Source: Comamonadaceae bacterium
GTDB lineage: Bacteria; Pseudomonadota; Gammaproteobacteria; Burkholderiales; Burkholderiaceae_C
Direction: 5' to 3'
Length of the DNA: 64,000 bases
Assembly: GCA_027485235.1 (NCBI GenBank)
Contig: JAIXRJ010000015.1
Span: forward strand, 1 to 64,000
Under the pieces are notes generated by a model. The model was not told where the DNA came from, searched no databases, and was given only the letters and a program-made list of their open reading frames with translations. The translations under genes and the position numbers were made by a program. Positions 37,386 to 46,688 of the stretch are shown here, piece by piece. The stretch's first letter is position 1. Each line of letters starts with the position of its first letter.

Positions 37386-37928
37386 TCAGGCAGGTGTTTG
37401 CCCGGGCATTTCAAACACCAGGCAGGCGGTGCTGGCGTGGGCGTACAGGGTGCCATCGGGTCCGACCAAGCGGGCCTCGGCGGTGGCCAGTTGGCGACCG
37501 CAGTGCACCACTTGGCCAATGGCCCGCACGCGCTGCACTTGGGGCGTCAGGGCTTTGACCAGTTTCACGCTCAGGTCGGCCGTGGTGTAGCCCCGGCCCG
37601 GCGGCATCATGGTGTGCACCGCGCAGCCCAGCGCCGAGTCGAGCAAGGTGGCAAACCAGCCGCCGTGCACGGTGCCCAAAGGGTTCATGTGGTCCAAACC
37701 GGGTGTGCCCTGAAAAACGGCCAGCCCAGGACCGATCTCCATCACCACAAAGTTCAAGGTCTTGGAGATGCTGGCGTAAGGCAATTCCCCCGACAGCAAG
37801 CCCTGCATCACCTCCAGCCCGGTCTTGCCTGCAATTTGCTCGCGTGTGGCCACCCCGGGGCCAACGCCTGCTTCCAGGCGGGCCCGCACGATGCGTTCTT
37901 CTTCGATCCAGGTCTCCAGCGCATTCAT
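37386..37928 (-). CDS. PaaI-type hotdog-fold thioesterase
   Basis: 180 residues. The hotdog core is marked by HMNPLGTVHGGWFATLLDSALG, with the HGG turn and following Asp forming the active site, and by YTTADLSVKLVKAL. Such enzymes hydrolyse aryl- or acyl-CoA esters, rescuing CoA from dead-end intermediates. The first 60 residues are an unusual N-terminal helix segment. It overlaps the dioxygenase gene by four bases (ATGA), so it is the last gene of the minus-strand unit 41276-37386. Confidence 0.85.
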   Translation of the reverse strand: MNALETWIEEERIVRARLEAGVGPGVATREQIAGKTGLEVMQGLLSGELPYASISKTLNFVVMEIGPGLAVFQGTPGLDHMNPLGTVHGGWFATLLDSALGCAVHTMMPPGRGYTTADLSVKLVKALTPQVQRVRAIGQVVHCGRQLATAEARLVGPDGTLYAHASTACLVFEMPGQTPA

Positions 37929-38821
37929 TTCAGGGCATCGGTCATGACGAAGTTGTATTCCAGTGTGAAGAAATCCCGGTCCATGACTTTGCCGTCTGGG
38001 GCTTGGCCAGGGGCTTGGGGCTTGAAGTCGGCAATCAGGGAGGGGCGCACGCCAAAGACGGCATCGCTGTACAGGTTCTGGCTGGTGCGGTCAAAGATGT
38101 GGGTGATCAGTGGGCGCTGGCCAGGGGCCTGGATGCGGAAATGCAAATGCGCAGGACGCCAGCTTCTGCCGGTGGTGGCTTGCAGCATTTGGATGGCGGT
38201 ACCGTCTTGCGGGACGGGGTAGTCCACTGGCAAAACCGACCAGAAGCTGTAGCGCCCGTCGGCACCGGTGGTGAGCACGGCCCGCGCCCAGGGACCGTTT
38301 TCTTCAATCCCGTCTTGCACGTCGTACAGCCCCCGATCGTCGGAGTGCCAGACGTCGATGACCGCGTTGGCCACCGGTTGGCCGTGGATGTCCAAGATCT
38401 GGCCTTGGGCATACATGGGTGTGCCGGCTGCACCCGCACTGATGTCTTCGCCCATCGCAAATTGGGGCGCATTCTCGAGCAGGAACGGACCGACCAAGGT
38501 GGGCTCGGTGGCGTGTTCCGGGCGGGGGTAGTCTTGCGTCACGGTCAGCATGGACAAGCCAAAGGCGTCCGAGAAGATCATGAACTCGTTGCGGCCTGGC
38601 GAGCACCATTTGCCGGTCTCTTCCAGAAAACGCATGGTGAAGGCCCACTCTTCAGCGGTCAGTTTGACCTCTTTGGCAAAGCTGTGGATGTGCTTGATCA
38701 AGGACAGCATCAGCTCGCGCAGGCGGGGGTCGGGCGTTTTGGCATAACGCGCCAGCACCTCTTCGGTGATCAGGTGCAAAGCGTCGTAGCGGTGTTCGGT
38801 GGTGTTGGGGGTGTCGCTCAT
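37925..38821 (-). CDS. Intradiol ring-cleavage dioxygenase (hydroxyquinol/catechol 1,2-dioxygenase-like)
   Basis: 298 residues. It cleaves a catechol- or hydroxyquinol-type ring between the two hydroxyls with Fe(III). The four iron ligands are visible: Tyr166 in GLYDVQ, Tyr201 in PVDYPVP, and His225 and His227 in PAHLHF. The N-terminal helical dimerisation domain (about residues 1-105) is the type found in catechol and hydroxyquinol dioxygenases and is absent from protocatechuate dioxygenases. MIFSDAFGLSMLT and the acidic loop favour a hydroxyquinol-like substrate, though chlorocatechol is possible. No maleylacetate reductase or muconate cycloisomerase accompanies it. It is preceded by the CoA-ligase gene, 11 bp away. 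Confidence 0.88.
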   Translation of the reverse strand: MSDTPNTTEHRYDALHLITEEVLARYAKTPDPRLRELMLSLIKHIHSFAKEVKLTAEEWAFTMRFLEETGKWCSPGRNEFMIFSDAFGLSMLTVTQDYPRPEHATEPTLVGPFLLENAPQFAMGEDISAGAAGTPMYAQGQILDIHGQPVANAVIDVWHSDDRGLYDVQDGIEENGPWARAVLTTGADGRYSFWSVLPVDYPVPQDGTAIQMLQATTGRSWRPAHLHFRIQAPGQRPLITHIFDRTSQNLYSDAVFGVRPSLIADFKPQAPGQAPDGKVMDRDFFTLEYNFVMTDALK

Positions 38822-38832
38822 GATGGAACTCT

Positions 38833-40449
38833 TCAGGTTGAAAAATCGGTGGCCTGCTGGCGCAAATGGTCGGCGGGTTTGAGTCTGAATTTGGCAATTT
38901 TCATGGAGCCGGTGTGGGGCAGGCTGTCGACCATGACGATGTAGCGGGGGCGTTTGATGGGTGACAGCTGCAACTGGGCGTAAGCATGCACCCCTTCCGG
39001 CGTGATGTCGGTGCCGGGGCGGGGCACCACGGCCAGCAGGATCTCTTCTTCACCCAGATCAGAGGCCACACCGATGGACGCGCATTCAAGGATGTCCGGG
39101 TGGCTGCCGATGGCCGAGTCAATTTCAGCACCCGAGATGTTCTCCCCGCGGCGGCGGATGATGTCTTTCTTGCGGGTGAAGAAAAACAGGAAATCATCGG
39201 CATCGCGGCGCACCAAATCACCGGTCAAAAACCACCCGTCTTTGAAACTGGCCGCTGTCTGTTCCGGGTCTTTGAAGTAGCCCTGCATCAGGGTCGGTGT
39301 CTTCACCGCCAGCTCACCCACTTCGCCGATGGGCAGCTCTTGGCCGTCCTCATCGATCACCCGCACTTGCGGCCGTTCAATGGCCGGGTCGGGGTGCGGC
39401 GAAATGCAGCCCATGCTGCCCAATTTGTGAGGCCCCAGGAAGGGGTTGCTCAGCACACCGGGAATTTCGGTCATGCCGTAGCACTCGATGAGCACGGGCA
39501 CGTGAAAACGCGTGTGGAAAGTGTCCAGCAAATCGCGGTTCAGGGGCGCCAGAAACATTTTGCGGATGTTGTGCTGGGGCGCAAATTCTTCAATGGGCCT
39601 GCGCGCCAGAATGGCCGCAGCCGACATGATCACATTCACTTCGGTGGCTCGGGTCTCAGCGGCCTGTTGCCAGAAAGTGGAGGCCGAAAATCGGCGGATC
39701 AAAATCAAAGTACCGCCACAGGCCATGGCGCCGCCCAGCGAGTACATCAGGGCATTGATGTGGAACAGCGGCAGCACACACATCAGCCTTTCATCGGGCT
39801 GCAGGAACATGCGGTGCACAAAGGCCTCGGCCGTGAGCAAATAGCTGCGTTGGCTGTGCATCACCCCCTTGGGAAAGCCCGTGGTGCCCGAGGTGTAAAT
39901 GATCATGCAGGTGCTGTCGGCCGTGCCTTTGCGTGTGCTGTGGTCGGCTTGGCAGTCTTGCCACTGATGCAGCAAGGACATTTCACCACCGGCTTGATCT
40001 TGCTCGACCACCACCTGCCAGGGGGCCGGGTCCATTTGCCCGGTCGCTTCTTGCACTTTGGCCAGCGCTTCGGGCGAACAAATCACGCCACGTACACCGG
40101 CGTGTTCAAAAATGTATTGGGCCTCGCGGGCTTCGAATTCGGGGTTGCAGGGCACCAAAATGGCGCCCGTTCGAGCGCAAGCGATGAGCAAGACCACCGT
40201 GGCCGGATGGTTGTAGGCCATCAAACCGATGCGGTCGCCGGCTTGCACCCCCCGCTCCAGCAGCCAGCTCACGGCGCGGTCGGCTTGTTCAGCACAAGAT
40301 TGCCAAGACATGACATCGCCTTGGTATTCCACCATGGGCAGTGCGCTCAACCGTCGCAGGCGGGCCTGAAAAAATTGATCGATGGAAAAATCGTGCGCGT
40401 CAAATTGGCGCAAGACCGACAGGGGCGGCAGGAGATCGGAGGAGGCCAT
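38833..40449 (-). CDS. Class I adenylate-forming acyl-CoA synthetase
   Basis: 538 residues from the ATG at 40449; a TTG seven codons upstream is unlikely. It activates a carboxylic acid as acyl-AMP and then acyl-CoA. The phosphate loop is IIYTSGTTGFPKG, followed by CYGMTEIPG (motif A5), GWFLTGDLVRRD, the hinge RRGENISGAEID and the catalytic Lys in GSMKIAKFRL near the C-terminus. It resembles the CaiC/BadA-like group for short or cyclic acids. Position between the dioxygenase and the citrate-synthase-like gene suggests that it charges the ring-cleavage product or the substrate imported by the divergent ABC system. Confidence 0.85.
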   Translation of the reverse strand: MASSDLLPPLSVLRQFDAHDFSIDQFFQARLRRLSALPMVEYQGDVMSWQSCAEQADRAVSWLLERGVQAGDRIGLMAYNHPATVVLLIACARTGAILVPCNPEFEAREAQYIFEHAGVRGVICSPEALAKVQEATGQMDPAPWQVVVEQDQAGGEMSLLHQWQDCQADHSTRKGTADSTCMIIYTSGTTGFPKGVMHSQRSYLLTAEAFVHRMFLQPDERLMCVLPLFHINALMYSLGGAMACGGTLILIRRFSASTFWQQAAETRATEVNVIMSAAAILARRPIEEFAPQHNIRKMFLAPLNRDLLDTFHTRFHVPVLIECYGMTEIPGVLSNPFLGPHKLGSMGCISPHPDPAIERPQVRVIDEDGQELPIGEVGELAVKTPTLMQGYFKDPEQTAASFKDGWFLTGDLVRRDADDFLFFFTRKKDIIRRRGENISGAEIDSAIGSHPDILECASIGVASDLGEEEILLAVVPRPGTDITPEGVHAYAQLQLSPIKRPRYIVMVDSLPHTGSMKIAKFRLKPADHLRQQATDFST

Positions 40450-40466
40450 GTTGTGCACTTGAAAAA

Positions 40467-41276
40467 TCAACGTGCCACCGGAGGGCCGTCGTAGGTCATG
40501 GCATTTTCGGCCGCACTGGCCAGCTTGAAGCCAATGGGTCGGGTTTGCTCCTCAAGAATGTGCGCGACCAATGAGGCGGTGCGGGCCAGCAAGGGAATGC
40601 CCTTGAGTGCGCCTGCAGGGTAGCCCGCGTCCAGCAGAACCGCAGGAATGGCCGCAGACACGTTCATGGGAAATGGCCGGCCGTAAACGCCTTCGACCTG
40701 TGAAGCCAAGGCCTGCAAGGCGCGCACATGGTCGCCTGCGACGCCCCATGATTGGGCCAATTCAATCAATTTGGTGGCACGCGGGTCGCCCAATTTGTGC
40801 ACCGGGTGGCCAAAGCCGGGCAAGGCCTGTTTGGCTGTACGAAAGGCTTGCAAGCGCGCGCGAGAGACCTCTTCCAGGGACAGGCCTTGTTTGGCCGATT
40901 CGGCCAACAGGTCGATCAACAGCAGACCAGCCGTTTCGGACGCCCCCAGGATCACCGGTCCGCAACCGAGCAGGCCTGCGGCCACTGCCCCCTGCACGGA
41001 TTCGGGGGCGGCCGCCAGGGTCATGCGCGCGGCCTGCACCGAGGGCACCAAACCATGCTCGGCCAAAGAGACCATGGTGGCATCGGCGACGCGCACCAGA
41101 TTCTCGCTCGGGGTCTCACCCGTCAATAAAAACAAAAAATAGGCGGTGAACGATTGTTGGCCAATCACGTCGCGGCAAAGGTCTTTGCCACGCACGACGA
41201 TCCGGTCGACCTCGGCAATCGCCATGTGCGTGGAGCCAGAGGGGGTGAAGGCGCTGGAGGTGGGCGTGGTGCTCAT
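40467..41276 (-). CDS. Citrate-synthase-fold protein (annotated-type citryl-CoA lyase), atypical active site
   Basis: 269 residues from the ATG at 41276; the frame is open upstream, but that part is not family-like. It is clearly homologous to the C-terminal two-thirds of citrate synthase: the segment PGFGHPVHKLGDPRA keeps the second catalytic His (His157). The GPxHGGANE segment that carries the first catalytic His reads GPVILGASE, with Ile109 in place of His. The NVDF segment with the catalytic Asp reads NVSAA, with Ser207. Two of the three catalytic residues are thus replaced. Small proteins of this kind are often labelled citryl-CoA lyase. A C-C lyase or CoA-ester-binding function in this catabolic cluster is an inference. 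It is the first gene of the minus-strand unit. Confidence 0.7.
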   Translation of the reverse strand: MSTTPTSSAFTPSGSTHMAIAEVDRIVVRGKDLCRDVIGQQSFTAYFLFLLTGETPSENLVRVADATMVSLAEHGLVPSVQAARMTLAAAPESVQGAVAAGLLGCGPVILGASETAGLLLIDLLAESAKQGLSLEEVSRARLQAFRTAKQALPGFGHPVHKLGDPRATKLIELAQSWGVAGDHVRALQALASQVEGVYGRPFPMNVSAAIPAVLLDAGYPAGALKGIPLLARTASLVAHILEEQTRPIGFKLASAAENAMTYDGPPVAR

Positions 41277-41495
41277 GTGATCGAAAAGTTTGAAAATAAA
41301 CAGGGTGAAAACCACGTTGTCCATGGTGGGAAAAGATCCAAACAGCTCTGCACTGTGAATGGCTTGCTTGTTGCTTCGCAAGCGCCTTCGCGACAGCTGC
41401 ACAGCGGGTTAGTCCTGATGGGGCGTTCGTGATTGCCTTTCATAATGATTTGACAAATTTGCGAGTTCCAATTTTTTAATCCTGAGGATTCAACC

Positions 41496-42689
41496 ATGCA
41501 AAAACGGCCTTTCCTGAAAGCACTCGGCTCGACCTTGTTGCTCACGTCCACGTCCTCTTGGCTGCACGCGCAGCCCAAGCCGATCCGGGTGGGCAGCACC
41601 TTGTCCTTGACAGGCCCTTTGGCGGGTACGGCCGTGATGCACAAGATTGCCGGCGAAATTTTCATTGAGCAACTCAACAAACGGGGTGGCTTGCTGGGTC
41701 GCCCGGTCGAATGGGTGGTCAAGGACGACCAGTCCAAGCCCGATCTGGCGCGCACCTTGTATGAACAGCTGATCTCCGGCGACAACGTCGACCTGTTGAT
41801 GGGCCCTTACGCCACAGCCAACTCCTTGGCCGCCATGGGCGTGGCCCAGCGCAATGGCAAAGTGCTGATCACCAACTCGTTTGGCATCCCCTCTTTGGCC
41901 AAGTACGACATGCACTTCCCGGCCTATGTCATGGGCATTGACCCGGGCACCACCGTGCCCAACACCTTGCTCGACGCCATCGCGGCCAGTGGTGCCAAGC
42001 CCCAGTCGGTGGCCTTGGTGAGCAGCAAGTTTCCGTCCGTGGTGTTCTTGTCGGCGGGCGCGCGTGAGGTCTTCAAAAAACGTGGCATGCGCGAAGCATT
42101 GTGGTTGGAATGGGAATTTGGCAACCGCGACTTTGGTCCCATTGCATCGCGCCTGAAGGAGGCCAATGCCGATGTGGTCTGGGTCGGATCGATCGGTGCA
42201 GAAAGCTTGCAGTTGCTCGAGGCCATGAACAAGATCGATTACAAGCCCAAGATCCATTTCCACGTCTACCCCACGCCGGGCCCGCTGGCGCAATCGCCTT
42301 TGGCCGCCAACGCCTTGACCTTGACCACTTTCGAGCAGCACGCGCCATTCACCAACAATCCGGCTTATGCGGAAGCGATCAAGATGTACAACGAGCGCGC
42401 TGCCAAAGCCAATTTGCCCGACACCGTGTTCGAGTTGCAGGCGGCCAACGCCTTCACGGGCTGGCAATTTCTGGAGGCCGGCGTCAAAGGTGCGGGCAGT
42501 CTGGAAGACGCCAAGATCTCGGCATGGCTCAAGAAAAACCGCGTGGACACCATCGTGGGCAAGGTTCGCTTCGATGGCCCCAACAACTACGGTGACGATT
42601 TGAACCGCATCAAGCAACTGCAAGGTGGCAAGTGGGTGGTGATCCATCCGAAGGATGTCGCGCTGCCTGGCAGCAAGATGCAGTTCTGA
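41496..42689 (+). CDS. ABC transporter substrate-binding protein, LivK-like
   Basis: 397 residues. The signal peptide is FLKALGSTLLLTSTSSWLHA with cleavage after HAQ. The periplasmic-binding-protein type I fold starts IRVGSTLSLTGPLAGTA, with MGPYATANSLAAM and VGSIGAESLQLLEAM as characteristic ligand-loop segments. The HAAT group binds branched-chain amino acids but also aromatic acids, amides and urea. Because it is divergent from an aromatic-type catabolic unit, an aromatic or aliphatic acid ligand is favoured. A GAGGA ribosome site precedes the ATG; TTGACA at 41450 is a possible -35, but the -10 is poor. It is the first of four transporter genes. Confidence 0.88.
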   Translation: MQKRPFLKALGSTLLLTSTSSWLHAQPKPIRVGSTLSLTGPLAGTAVMHKIAGEIFIEQLNKRGGLLGRPVEWVVKDDQSKPDLARTLYEQLISGDNVDLLMGPYATANSLAAMGVAQRNGKVLITNSFGIPSLAKYDMHFPAYVMGIDPGTTVPNTLLDAIAASGAKPQSVALVSSKFPSVVFLSAGAREVFKKRGMREALWLEWEFGNRDFGPIASRLKEANADVVWVGSIGAESLQLLEAMNKIDYKPKIHFHVYPTPGPLAQSPLAANALTLTTFEQHAPFTNNPAYAEAIKMYNERAAKANLPDTVFELQAANAFTGWQFLEAGVKGAGSLEDAKISAWLKKNRVDTIVGKVRFDGPNNYGDDLNRIKQLQGGKWVVIHPKDVALPGSKMQF

Positions 42690-42690
42690 C

Positions 42691-43542
42691 ATGCCCAGCG
42701 CAGGGCTTTTACTCCAAGCTCTGGCCTCTGGTGTCTTTCTCGGTGCCCTGTATGGCCTCATTGGCCTGGGCATCGGGTTGGGCTGGGGCCTGCTCAGGCA
42801 AATCAACCTGGCGCATTTCGCCTGGGTGTTCCTGTCAGCTTACATCACCTACGAGCTGAAAACCCGATTGGGAATTGACCCCTTGCTCTCGCTGGTGGCC
42901 TTGGTGCCCTTGTTTGCTTTGCTGGGCATGGGCTTGCAAGCCGTCTTTGCCCGATTTGCCATCACCCCGTTCAATTCCTTGCTGGTCACGTTTGGCATCA
43001 CGGTGTCTGTGGAGGCCTTGCTGCAGTGGATCTGGAGTGCCGACTTCCGTCGCATGTCCTCGCTCTATGACGAGCACAAATTCCGCCTGGGCAGCGTGGT
43101 GGTCACTTATTCTGAGGCCTTGACTTTGGCCATGTGCCTGGTCGCGGTGGCCTTGGTGTGGTGGATGTTGCACCGCACCGATGTGGGCAAGTCGGTTCGG
43201 GCCAGTGCCGAAGACCCGGCCATCGCCACAGCCTTTGGCATCAACGCCAAGCGCCTGGCCGTTTTGCTGGCCGGTCTTTGTGCGGCTTTGGCCGCCTGTG
43301 CGGGGGTGTGTGTGGCCTTGACATTCACTTTGGCACCTTCCCAAATCTTCGCTTGGGTGGGGGTGGTGTTTGCGGTGGTCATGATCGGTCGCCTGGGCTC
43401 GGCCTTGACCCCCTTGCTGGGTGGTTTGGCCATTGGCATCAGCGAGTCCATGACCCAGGCCTTGATTGCGCCAACCTGGGCGCCCTTGGTGGCGTTCACA
43501 GTGTTGATCCTGATTCTTTTGCTCAGGCGTGGTGATGAATAA
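42691..43542 (+). CDS. ABC transporter permease, LivH-like
   Basis: 283 residues from the ATG at 42691, two bases after the livK-like stop. About eight transmembrane helices are visible; the first is LLQALASGVFLGALYGLIGLG and the conserved GLCAALAACAGVCVALTF is near residue 200. The cytoplasmic coupling loop RASAEDPAIATAFGINAKRL is the EAA-like motif that contacts the ATPases. It forms one half of the membrane channel with the fused permease-ATPase downstream. The 3' end overlaps the next start. Confidence 0.9.
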   Translation: MPSAGLLLQALASGVFLGALYGLIGLGIGLGWGLLRQINLAHFAWVFLSAYITYELKTRLGIDPLLSLVALVPLFALLGMGLQAVFARFAITPFNSLLVTFGITVSVEALLQWIWSADFRRMSSLYDEHKFRLGSVVVTYSEALTLAMCLVAVALVWWMLHRTDVGKSVRASAEDPAIATAFGINAKRLAVLLAGLCAALAACAGVCVALTFTLAPSQIFAWVGVVFAVVMIGRLGSALTPLLGGLAIGISESMTQALIAPTWAPLVAFTVLILILLLRRGDE

Positions 43543-45319
43543 GATCCAGAGAATTTCTGTCGTGCTGGGGGTGTTGCTGCTCTTGTTCGCGGCCCCTTAC
43601 ATCGGCCTTCCAGTTCACTTGCAGTCCTTGCTCTATGTGATCTTCTTTTGGATCACTCTGGCCACCTCCTGGAACATGCTTTCGGGCTACTCCGGTTATT
43701 TTTCGTTTGGCCATGGGGCGTTTTTTGGTGTGGGCATGTATGGCATGGCCACGCTGGCTGCCAAGGCCGACTGGCCTGTGGTGCCTGCTGCGCTGGGCAG
43801 TGGTGTGTTGGCGGCGCTGTTGGCCTTGGCCATTGGCGCCTTGGTCTTCAAGGTACGCAAGATCCGTGGCGAGTCTTTCGCCCTGATCACCTTGGCCGTG
43901 GGTTTTGTGCTGGCCACGGTGGTGGTCAACACGCCGATCGATGGTGGCCCCGGGGTCTACCTGATGGGCGTCCATTTGCCTCAGTGGGGCCCCAAGCCTG
44001 CCTCCACTTTTTATTACGCCAGTTTGGTGCTGACGGTGCTGTGTGTGGCCACCGCTTGGTGGTTGTTCCATGCCCGCGCCGGACTGGGTTTGTTGGCGAT
44101 CCACGACGATGAAGATGCCGCCGAGGTCAATGGTGTGCCCAGTTTCTGGCTCAAGATGGGGGCCTTTGCCCTGTCCAGCTTCTTTGCGGGCGTGATGGGG
44201 GCCATCCACGCTTTGTACGTGTCTTACGTCACGGTGGGCGAGACCTTCAACATCACCGTTCCTTTGACCGTGGTGCTGATGAGCGTGTTGGGCGGCAGCC
44301 GCCATTGGGCAGGCCCCATGCTGGGCGGCATTTTGATCACGCTCTTGCTCAACGCCTTCACCGCAGGTGAGAGCGCGCTGATCGGCAAGGTCATCACCGG
44401 CGTGGTGTTGGCGGCAGCGGTGCTGATCATGCCGCGGGGCATTTTGGGCACCTGGCAGTTGCGCCAACACAAGCGGCTGATCCAGAAAACCCATGCTGAT
44501 GCAGCGCCAACGGGCAACAATGCACATGCACACGAAGAGCCTCTGGTGCTGGAGCGGCCAGCCACCCGTCCTGCCGATGCGGCGGACCGTGTCAAAGTGC
44601 TGGAAGTGCGAGGCTTGAGCAAGCACTTCTCGGGCATTCGGGCTTTGAACGAGGTGGACCTGGATTTGTACCAAGGCGAGATTCTGGGTCTGCTGGGCCC
44701 CAATGGTTCAGGCAAGTCGACCTTCATCAACGTTGTGACAGGCCACTACCGACCCACTGCCGGGACGGTCATGCTGCGGGGCCAATCGTGCGCGGGCTGG
44801 CAGGCCCACCGCATCCGCCGGCAGGGTTTGTCGCGCACCTACCAAATTCCTCGCCCCTTCAATGGCCTGACGGTGCTGCAAAACGTGACCCTGGCCGCGC
44901 ATTACGGCGGCGCGCGTCTGACGGATGCACAGGCCTTGGCCGAGGCGCAAGAGTGGATGCTGTTCACCGGTCTGCAAGACAAGGGTGATCACTACCCCGA
45001 CGAGTTGAACTTGCACCAGCGCAAGTTTTTGGAACTGGCCCGCGCTCTGGCAGCACGGCCGCAAGTGCTCTTGCTCGACGAAGTCTTGTCGGGCTTGACG
45101 CCCTCTGAGATCGCCGCTGCCGTGCAGACGATTCGGCGCATTCGAGAGCGTGGTACTTCGATTGTGTTTGTCGAGCACGTCATGAGCGCCGTGCTGGCTT
45201 TGTCCGACCGCTTGGTGGTGCTCAACCAGGGCGAAGTCATCGCGGAAGGTCACCCGCAGGATGTGATGGCCCGAGCCGAGGTGGTGCGGGCTTATCTGGG
45301 CGATGAGGCGGCGGTGTAA
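43535..45319 (+). CDS. Fused ABC permease-ATPase (LivM-LivG fusion)
   Basis: 594 residues from the ATG at 43535; the GTG six bases earlier is less likely. Residues 1 to about 315 form the LivM permease (SYSGYFSFGHGAFFGVGMYGMA region, then about nine helices ending at MPRGILGTWQ). A charged linker of about 45 residues (His, Ala, Glu, Pro-rich) follows, then a LivG-type ATPase. Walker A GPNGSGKST is near residue 387, Walker B LLLLDE near 512, and His of the switch near 540 (VEHVMSA). The ABC signature LSxGQ is replaced by LNLHQ near 490. It couples ATP hydrolysis to import with LivH and LivF. The upstream gene overlaps by 8 bp. Confidence 0.88.
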   Translation: MNKIQRISVVLGVLLLLFAAPYIGLPVHLQSLLYVIFFWITLATSWNMLSGYSGYFSFGHGAFFGVGMYGMATLAAKADWPVVPAALGSGVLAALLALAIGALVFKVRKIRGESFALITLAVGFVLATVVVNTPIDGGPGVYLMGVHLPQWGPKPASTFYYASLVLTVLCVATAWWLFHARAGLGLLAIHDDEDAAEVNGVPSFWLKMGAFALSSFFAGVMGAIHALYVSYVTVGETFNITVPLTVVLMSVLGGSRHWAGPMLGGILITLLLNAFTAGESALIGKVITGVVLAAAVLIMPRGILGTWQLRQHKRLIQKTHADAAPTGNNAHAHEEPLVLERPATRPADAADRVKVLEVRGLSKHFSGIRALNEVDLDLYQGEILGLLGPNGSGKSTFINVVTGHYRPTAGTVMLRGQSCAGWQAHRIRRQGLSRTYQIPRPFNGLTVLQNVTLAAHYGGARLTDAQALAEAQEWMLFTGLQDKGDHYPDELNLHQRKFLELARALAARPQVLLLDEVLSGLTPSEIAAAVQTIRRIRERGTSIVFVEHVMSAVLALSDRLVVLNQGEVIAEGHPQDVMARAEVVRAYLGDEAAV

Positions 45320-45321
45320 AC

Positions 45322-46026
45322 ATGCTCCAAATAGAAAAAATCCAAGTCAATTACGGCGCAGCCCCGGCTTTGTGGGATGTGTCCTTGCACATCCAGTCGG
45401 GTGAAATGGTCTCGGTCATTGGCCCCAATGGCGCAGGCAAGACCACCTTGATCAATGCCGTCATGGGCCTGAGTCCCTTGAAGTCTGGCCAGATCGTCTG
45501 GGAAGGCGAGACGGTTTCGGCCTTGCCACCCCACCGGCTGTGTGAAAGAGGTCTGGCCTTGGTGCCCGAAAGCCGCAGGCTGTTCACCGGCATGACGGTG
45601 CGCGAGAACCTGGAACTGGGGGCCATGCACCCAGCAGCGCGCGCGGTGCGCGACCGAACTTTTGAGCAGGTGTGTGAGCTCTTTCCCGCCGTGCGTGCCA
45701 AGCTCAACCAGCTTGCAGGCACCTTGTCGGGCGGTCAGCAGCAAATGGTGGCCATTGGCCGGGCCATGATGGCTTTGCCCCGGTTGTTGTTGCTCGATGA
45801 ACCTTCTCTGGGCCTGGCGCCCAGCATCGTGGCCGAGATGTTTCGGGCCATCGGGTCGATCCACCTCAGCGGCACGGCCGTGCTGTTGGTGGAGCAAAAC
45901 GTCAGCCGTGCTTTGGCCATTTCGCAACGCACTTATGTGTTGGAAAACGGTCGTGTGGTCACCTCGGGTGTTTCATCCGAGCTGAGCCGCCGTGACGAAA
46001 TCCGCAAGGCCTATCTGGGCATTTGA
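45322..46026 (+). CDS. ABC transporter ATP-binding protein, LivF-like
   Basis: 234 residues, the usual LivF length. Walker A is GPNGAGKTT near residue 35, the signature LSGGQQQMVAIGRAMM near 137, Walker B LLLLDEPSLGLAP near 155, and the switch His region LLVEQNVSRAL. Unlike the fused partner it keeps a canonical LSGGQ, so it probably carries the fully competent ATP site of the heterodimer. It is two bases after the fusion gene and is the last gene of the transporter operon, convergent with the KDPGal aldolase gene 26 bp on. Confidence 0.92.
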   Translation: MLQIEKIQVNYGAAPALWDVSLHIQSGEMVSVIGPNGAGKTTLINAVMGLSPLKSGQIVWEGETVSALPPHRLCERGLALVPESRRLFTGMTVRENLELGAMHPAARAVRDRTFEQVCELFPAVRAKLNQLAGTLSGGQQQMVAIGRAMMALPRLLLLDEPSLGLAPSIVAEMFRAIGSIHLSGTAVLLVEQNVSRALAISQRTYVLENGRVVTSGVSSELSRRDEIRKAYLGI

Positions 46027-46052
46027 TCTCGGCCTTTGATTTTGGCCTTTGT

Positions 46053-46688
46053 TCAACCCCGCAGGGCCTGAACGAAGCGTTGCGCAGCTTCGCGGACCTG
46101 CAGCGCTGAACTTCCAGGCTTGTACAAAGCCGATCCCAAACCAAAGCCATTGGCGCCTGCGCTCAGGTAGGCGGCCATGTTGTCTGGCGTGATGCCGCCC
46201 ACGGGCATCAAGGCGACGTCTTTCGGCAGCACCGCGCGCAGGGCTTTGAGCACGGTGGGGTTGATCAACTCCGCAGGGAAGAGCTTGAGCGCATGCGCAC
46301 CCGCAGCCAGTGCCGCAAAGGCCTCGCTGGGTGTGGCCACACCTGGCATACAGGCCAAGCCCAGGCGCACGGCTTCGTGCACCACGGCGGGGTCAAAGTG
46401 GGGCGAGATGACGATGCGCCCGCCAGCGGCGTGCACCTCGCGCACCTGTAACGCGCTCAGCACGGTGCCTGCACCGATCAGGTGGTCCGGGTGTTGCGCA
46501 GCCAAAGCCGCAATGCTGTCCAGGGGGCGCGGCGAATTGAGCGGTACTTCGATCAGCGCAAAACCGCTGTCCACCAAAGCTTGGCCGATGGCCGGTGCTT
46601 CTTGCGGTGTCAGGCCCCGCAAGATCGCGACCAGCGGCAGTTGCTGAAGGGCGCGAGAAAAATGTTCAGGGATGGCGAGGGTGTTCAT
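46053..46688 (-). CDS. dgoA: 2-dehydro-3-deoxy-6-phosphogalactonate aldolase
   Basis: 211 residues of the KDPG/KHG aldolase family. The Schiff-base Lys135 is in LKLFPAE, the catalytic Glu47 in LIEVPLNSP. LVAILRGLTPQEA, IGAGTVL and PVGGITPDN are intact. The ILRG N-terminus and VPLNSP motif (rather than the ITLRT of Eda) place it in the DgoA branch acting on KDPGal, though many members also accept KDPG. It forms the 3' end of the minus-strand unit kdgK-dgoK-dgoA, 10 bp after the kinase, and releases pyruvate and glyceraldehyde-3-phosphate. Confidence 0.9.
   Translation of the reverse strand: MNTLAIPEHFSRALQQLPLVAILRGLTPQEAPAIGQALVDSGFALIEVPLNSPRPLDSIAALAAQHPDHLIGAGTVLSALQVREVHAAGGRIVISPHFDPAVVHEAVRLGLACMPGVATPSEAFAALAAGAHALKLFPAELINPTVLKALRAVLPKDVALMPVGGITPDNMAAYLSAGANGFGLGSALYKPGSSALQVREAAQRFVQALRG

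Follow-up and report, generated by a model that had tools for sequence, protein, structure and literature searches.

Citrate synthases use two histidines and one aspartate in catalysis, which we take to be His274, His320 and Asp375 in the numbering of these enzymes. Known relatives include the citryl-CoA lyase of Hydrogenobacter (6hxp) and the citrate synthase modules of ATP-citrate lyases, of which the Chlorobium module (6qcl) has a Phe at the first His position and keeps the Asp in our profile alignment. For human ATP-citrate lyase, which also has a synthetase module, one study reports that exchange of Asp1026 for Ala inactivates the enzyme, that it is debated whether this residue serves as general base or has a more remote effect, and that in one model CoA loading and acetyl-CoA unloading are the only tasks of the citrate synthase module (PMC10115795). 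Proteins of the NCBIfam family NF004868 (PRK06224.1-5) are likewise named citryl-CoA lyase. In the hydroxyquinol pathway, the ring-cleaving dioxygenases normally feed maleylacetate reductase.

Here we describe an NF004868 member, hereafter the CCL-like protein, that is encoded next to genes for CoA activation and ring cleavage in a 64,000-nucleotide stretch of a Comamonadaceae genome (the window). Although the protein has a known fold and belongs to a known family, its type of active site, its gene context and its probable function appear to be undescribed in the literature that we searched: judged by titles and the beginnings of abstracts, none of the articles listed was about this gene set, and searches for maleylacetyl-CoA and related terms returned nothing.

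Fold and active site

The CCL-like protein is a direct member of NF004868 (316.1 bits at a cut-off of 193) and contains the C-terminal domain of citrate synthase (PF00285) as its single Pfam domain. Its top match among solved chains is 6hxp (99.2 bits), which is also the best fit to a predicted model of mean pLDDT 92.4 (Z 24.6, rmsd 2.5, 247 aligned residues, 29% identity), and the model thus points to the citryl-CoA lyase fold at lyase length. The ATP-citrate lyase modules 6qcl and 6hxm come second with Z of 21.8 and 21.7, but the CCL-like protein, with 269 residues and one Pfam domain, has no synthetase module in its chain. Citrate and 2-methylcitrate synthases share the homologous C-terminal domain (Z 16.3 to 19.2 among the matches listed) yet are longer, with roughly 350 to 440 residues in the listed chains.

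Likeness to 6hxp extends over the whole length of the fold and includes the size, His157, Arg166, Arg232 and the GxGH and DPR motifs; the differences are Ser in place of the catalytic Asp, Ile in place of His and His160 in place of Tyr. In the alignment of the two, Ile109 (in GPVILGASE) faces the His of SAHGGA, Ser207 (in NVSAA) faces the Asp of NVDGA, and His157 (in GFGHPVHK) faces the His of GYGHRYYK. The register is unchanged in a profile of 71 relatives, the Asp column being matched via 6hxp and 6qcl and not via the human chain. These alignments confirm the initial annotation of this gene, which had read Ile109 and Ser207 as replacements of the catalytic His and Asp beside a retained His157. 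With two of the three catalytic residues missing, its view that the protein is no ordinary citrate synthase is supported as well. Its doubt about the name citryl-CoA lyase is supported, too, but on narrower grounds: because 6qcl also has a hydrophobic residue at the position of Ile109, the lost His is no evidence and only the loss of the Asp, which 6qcl keeps, argues against the label. The annotation had further considered that a functional His or Asp might be supplied from nearby, and no neighboring residue obviously replaces the lost Asp. His160 as a replacement catalytic residue is unsupported and no clear substitute for the Asp, because relatives that keep the Asp carry His160, too.

Operon and transporter

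The CCL-like gene comes first in a tight minus-strand operon, with the ligase gene 17 bases behind it, the dioxygenase gene another 11 bases on and the thioesterase gene overlapping the latter by 4 bases; a divergent ABC transporter lies upstream (Table 1). The dioxygenase is nearer to solved hydroxyquinol dioxygenases (236 bits for 1tmx, 220 for 3n9t) than to catechol dioxygenases (96 bits for the best), suggesting hydroxyquinol as its putative substrate. It is the sole intradiol dioxygenase of the window genome (95.85% complete), in which a maleylacetate reductase query found no match at E ≤ 1e-20; the maleate isomerase profile PF17645 had no match there, though its control matched nowhere either. 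None of the other three operon genes resembles citryl-CoA synthetase in the family search. Scans for regulatory sites returned 0 promoter-like sites (0.7 in shuffles) and 6 terminator-like sites (5.2 in shuffles, sd 2.3).

Table 1. Genes and active-site codons at the locus of the CCL-like gene (window coordinates).
Feature	Coordinates	Strand	Basis
Hotdog thioesterase (PF03061, TIGR00369)	37386..37928	-	Family search; 4-base overlap with dioxygenase
Intradiol dioxygenase, nearest solved relative hydroxyquinol 1,2-dioxygenase 1tmx	37925..38821	-	Search of solved chains
Acyl-CoA ligase (PF00501, PF13193)	38833..40470	-	Pfam; likelier ATG start at 40449
Citryl-CoA-lyase-fold protein (CCL-like), NCBIfam NF004868	40467..41276	-	One open frame, 269 aa; family score and predicted model
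Ser207 codon, catalytic Asp position	40656..40658	-	Alignments
His160 codon, conserved; Tyr in 6hxp and L163	40797..40799	-	81/81 rows; Asp-keeping relatives too
His157 codon, retained (presumably His320 of citrate synthase)	40806..40808	-	81/81 rows
Ile109 codon, citrate synthase His274 position	40950..40952	-	Alignments
Periplasmic binding protein (PF13458) of ABC transporter, divergent	41496..42689	+	Pfam
LivH/UrtB-like permease	42655..43542	+	All matches under curated cut-offs
LivM/LivG-like permease-ATPase	43529..45319	+	Named by eye from translation; homologs at other loci
LivF-like ATPase	45322..46026	+	Named by eye from translation; homologs at other loci

Conservation of the substitutions

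The initial annotation had proposed to check whether the substitutions are fixed in orthologs beside the same CoA ligase. They are fixed, with the neighbor being more broadly a CoA-activating gene, either a ligase or a class III CoA-transferase. Among 299 genomes of the same family, including that of the window, 59 match the CCL-like protein at E ≤ 1e-20. The window's protein and 21 others form a band at about 50% identity (48% to 53%), separated from the next matches at 41% and below with the exception of a contig-end fragment at 46% (G281), and all 22 full members of this band have Ile or Val at position 109 and Ser at position 207. A second set, the named loci, holds the best 80 of 477 pattern-matched relatives from a species-representative genome collection. 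Ser at position 207 is favored among them because [LM]NVS[AG]AIPA was one of the two patterns used to draw them, a bias from which the family search and a search of 398 genomes of the phylum are free. Over 81 rows including the 80 named loci, position 109 is Ile in 53, Val in 26 and Met in 2, position 207 is Ser in 78, Gln in 2 and a gap in 1, and His157 and His160 are present throughout.

In the phylum search, proteins from 17 of the 398 genomes (the window's included) exceed the NF004868 cut-off, and 16 of them lack both residues, with Ser, Asn or Thr at 207 and Ile, Val or Phe at 109. The remaining one, at locus L168, scores just above the cut-off (208 bits) and has retained the His as well as the Asp; NF004868 therefore mixes two active-site types. 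L168 groups with 6hxp in our tree, on long branches, and the 13 loci that we read just under the cut-off (L169 to L181) all keep His and Asp.

This maximum-likelihood tree was built from 88 chosen rows (with 29 of the 80 named loci, and omitting L002, L154 and L157 as another citrate synthase or duplicates). A single branch (100/98) parts 73 Asp-less from 15 Asp-keeping rows, though long branches meet at this split, so that one origin is compatible with the tree rather than proven by it; we read the change as a loss of the Asp because citrate synthases have an acid there. The residues at positions 109, 160 and 207 are IHS in 37 rows, VHS in 15, HHD in 14, FHT in 12, VHN in 6, MHQ in 2 and HYD and IYS in 1 each. 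The Asp-less rows thus have a hydrophobic residue at the His place and, in 73 of 73, a polar one (Ser, Asn, Thr or Gln) at the Asp place. In 71 rows from both Asp-less clades, no variation occurs at His74, Arg84, His157, His160, Arg166 or Arg232, while L163, outside this set, has Tyr at 160; we take the invariant His and Arg residues to match the oxaloacetate ligands of citrate synthase. Among 14 close orthologs, dN/dS has a median of 0.043 and a maximum of 0.085 (78 of 91 pairs usable, median dS near 1). The double substitution is a fixed trait of a widespread, well-conserved group under purifying selection, and decay to a pseudogene is ruled out by the dN/dS of about 0.04 together with the invariant active-site residues. 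A fusion to a second domain, considered for the long frames of L118, L049 and L146, was rejected since they contain no second Pfam domain at E ≤ 0.001.

Could the label still be right, with Ser or some other group doing the work of the Asp in an ordinary citryl-CoA lyase? The top structural match to 6hxp and the NF004868 name would suggest so, the His is evidently dispensable in Chlorobium ATP-citrate lyase, and formation of citryl-CoA by a CoA-transferase or ligase is conceivable. We nevertheless regard this as very improbable, because the Asp is needed in human ATP-citrate lyase (PMC10115795) but replaced in every Asp-less row, and because the operon has no citryl-CoA synthetase-like gene while its dioxygenase speaks for a role in aromatic catabolism. 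The NF004868 name finds no support in the active site of the Asp-less members. Having lost the residues for enolization and kept the acid-base His, a presumed carboxylate site and a polar side chain at the Asp place, the protein might instead hydrolyze or isomerize a CoA thioester and leave all C-C bonds intact. This seems improbable as well: to hydrolyze a CoA thioester that has only just been made would create a futile cycle, and a hotdog thioesterase is already part of the window operon.

Gene neighborhoods of relatives

Neighborhoods were compared over fetched stretches of mostly ca. 8 kb on each side, with heuristic gene calls that miss some genes. Of the 16 query proteins, one (LIG_L100) was out of frame; ligases were counted with the window ligase as query, in agreement with the gene listings of the loci. 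A CoA ligase or class III CoA-transferase is found in the fetched stretch of 120 out of 121 loci, a raw count for gene families that are common. These are the window, all 21 family orthologs, 79 of the 80 named loci and all 19 fetched loci of a 38% identity clade (not every such match of the family search); at the exception, L093, the stretch ends inside the CCL gene. Counting midpoints within 3 kb, the partner is a transferase at 20 and a ligase at 1 of the 21 family loci, compared to 45 and 33 of the 80 named loci. A ring-cleavage dioxygenase is present in the window, at 20 of 21 family orthologs and at 55 of 80 named loci (40 intradiol, 16 of LigB type, one locus with both), but at none of the 19 loci of the 38% clade; several of the 25 named loci that show none are cut by contig ends. 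From these counts, neighboring genes for CoA activation are shared throughout the Asp-less group, and those for ring cleavage are peculiar to the clade of the window.

With a ligase or transferase so constantly alongside, the CCL-like protein could also be a non-catalytic subunit or regulator that handles CoA for this neighbor, much as PMC10115795 describes for the human ATP-citrate lyase module in one model. We find this quite unlikely, since invariant His74, His157, Arg166 and Arg232 indicate a maintained active site and a fixed protein contact is less likely with partners from two unrelated families.

Because the group has lost the key Asp and adjoins genes that attach CoA and often cleave rings, its members have probably been misnamed as citryl-CoA lyases, and we find it likelier that they catalyze a CoA-ester reaction in aromatic breakdown that has yet to be named. 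That the CCL-like protein is a CoA-ester enzyme other than citryl-CoA lyase seems rather likely to us. More tentatively, we suggest that the Asp-less proteins act on the CoA thioester made by the neighboring ligase or class III CoA-transferase, usually within a ring-cleavage operon.

Several other features recur at these loci. A LigB-type extradiol dioxygenase takes the place of the intradiol enzyme at 16 of the 80 named loci (L119, L121, L123, L126, L146, L150, L151 and others), where the CoA-transferase and CCL-like genes are present and an amidohydrolase gene often is; by our own reasoning, intradiol and extradiol cleavage of a vicinal triol would lead to one and the same product. A short protein resembling cobalamin-independent methionine synthase (PF01717) is encoded at L036, L038, L046, L049, L050, L105, L106 and L144. 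Small YciI-type proteins, possibly responsible for an isomerase step, occur in beta- and alphaproteobacterial kinds of the cluster (L072:11351-11695, L143, L146:9955-10368). Upstream of the CCL-like gene, L116 (3777-7167) and L124 (6284-7813) have a gene with HMGL-like and PYC_OADA domains, and L116 also has one for biotin carboxylase. In the 38% Asp-less clade, L054, L057, L059, L061 and L063 share a cluster of HpcH/HpaI lyase, acyl-CoA dehydrogenase, MmgE/PrpD and class III CoA-transferase genes.

A possible CoA-dependent hydroxyquinol pathway

What reaction might this be? In the route that we propose, the dioxygenase would open hydroxyquinol to maleylacetate, which the ligase would convert to maleylacetyl-CoA, a 3-oxoacyl-CoA. 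The retained Arg166 and Arg232 would then hold the carboxylate end of this substrate while His157, as base, would help to add water to its ketone, giving a tetrahedral adduct that would resemble the tertiary alcohol of citryl-CoA. Retro-Claisen cleavage of the adduct would expel acetyl-CoA and leave maleate, and maleylacetate reductase would be bypassed. Where a reductase is present, 3-oxoadipyl-CoA could be the substrate instead and yield succinate. We hold the parts of this proposal with different confidence. That the CCL-like protein performs a C-C cleavage releasing acetyl-CoA is slightly less likely than not; the loss of the citrate synthase residues that form and protonate the acetyl-CoA enolate does not favor a reaction of this kind. 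Maleylacetyl-CoA as the actual substrate is doubtful, and we consider it rather unlikely that the whole, a CoA-dependent lower hydroxyquinol pathway in which hydrolytic splitting of the CoA-bound ring-fission product without the enolizing His and Asp replaces maleylacetate reductase, is correct as drawn.

Compared to the hydroxyquinol pathway with maleylacetate reductase, these loci have a homologous dioxygenase of the hydroxyquinol type, but CoA activation and the CCL-like gene often stand in place of the reductase and the dioxygenases group separately. Because iron-containing alcohol dehydrogenases (PF00465) occur in all 22 genomes with the CCL-like gene (one in that of the window), a true relative of solved maleylacetate reductases was taken as query. 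The 299 family genomes contain 85 hydroxyquinol-dioxygenase-like genes that score above 200 bits. Within 10 kb of these, the reductase alone is encoded in 45 cases, the CCL-like protein alone in 16, both in 5 (with two of the five being neighbors in one genome, G097) and neither in 19, an alternation with an odds ratio of 0.13 (Fisher p 2.6e-4) over related and thus not independent genomes. With all 120 genes of at least 140 bits, the counts are 48, 17, 5 and 50, and the alternation is weaker (odds ratio 0.31, p 0.03). Seen from the other side, 21 of the 22 CCL-like genes have a hydroxyquinol-dioxygenase-like gene within 10 kb (all but that of G053). A reductase is encoded somewhere (E ≤ 1e-60) in 15 of the 22 genomes, with the window's among the 7 that have none, and shares the cluster with the CCL-like gene at three family loci (L046, L051, L052). 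The CCL-like gene and maleylacetate reductase thus partly alternate in their presence.

A tree of 58 dioxygenases, in which L047 is represented by its reductase-side copy, separates a type found with ligase and CCL (100/100), a type found with transferase and CCL (100/100) and a reductase-side type (82/88) whose 19 rows all lie within 10 kb of a reductase. The substrates of the three types may differ. The ligase locus L035 falls inside the transferase type, and L183 (genome G161) is in the ligase type though no CCL-like gene is nearby. Its dioxygenase (L183:9108-10547) is 66% identical to that of the window, yet neither a ligase nor a CCL-like gene was found in the fetched 19 kb and no CCL-like gene in the genome at E ≤ 1e-20.

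Distribution in Limnohabitans

Across 90 genomes of the genus, which we take to be Limnohabitans, 13 have the window-type CCL-like gene (one partial), one more has a relative of 51% identity, and seven further genomes have only relatives of 34% to 41%. The window-type dioxygenase is found in 15 (one partial), including 12 of the 13 with the CCL-like gene; in the remaining one of these 13, the contig breaks off within the ligase gene. Three of the 15 (L203, L204, L205) have no CCL-like gene. At L203 and L205 (G714, G783), the ligase, CCL-like and transporter genes are gone as one block while dioxygenase and thioesterase stay; the block is missing where a KDPG aldolase gene follows on the other side of it from the dioxygenase gene (L203:9072-10684 and L205:4395-6116, compared to 37925-46688 in the window). 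At L204, the 19 kb fetched showed neither a CCL-like gene nor a close ligase or a transporter. Since the block is absent while the dioxygenase remains, the dioxygenase can do without the CCL-like protein. In the genus, the CCL-like gene thus goes with ligase and transporter more closely than with the dioxygenase, and no other result speaks as strongly against the position that we propose for its reaction.

The same joint absence would fit a block that worked ahead of ring cleavage, with an imported aromatic or other acid turned into a CoA ester, its side chain shortened by the CCL-like protein in a retro-aldol or retro-Claisen reaction, and the dioxygenase acting on the ring only later. Some relatives fit this order of events, too: at L098, L107, L114 and L115, genes for a TctC receptor and a regulator accompany the one for CoA-transferase or ligase, and our queries detected no dioxygenase. 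We still consider it unlikely, as the invariant arginines of what we take to be the oxaloacetate site suit a dicarboxylate better than an aryl group, and as gene order and the exchange of intradiol for LigB-type dioxygenases suit a shared ring-fission product, which would be the substrate in the CoA-dependent hydroxyquinol pathway proposed above.

The comparison of L203 and L205 with the window offers a natural presence/absence pair for the function of the block. Ten Limnohabitans genomes have dioxygenases of 46% to 50% identity and none of the ten has the window-type CCL-like gene; two encode a true reductase and a third (G782) has only a partial match of 38%. Since 8 of the 10 have neither, the reductase may be absent without a CCL-like protein replacing it, and its absence proves little. 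At L206, L207 and L208, with dioxygenases of ca. 50% identity, neither maleylacetate reductase nor CCL-like genes were found in the fetched stretch, pointing to another unexplained fate of the ring-fission product.

Implications

The curated name of NF004868 spans a large group of proteins that mostly lack a residue thought to be essential for the reaction in this name. If our proposal is true, the citrate synthase fold would gain a further reaction, that of a retro-Claisen 3-oxoacyl-CoA hydrolase, beside the citrate-type aldol and Claisen chemistry, and freshwater Limnohabitans and many other proteobacteria would have a second, CoA-dependent hydroxyquinol pathway.
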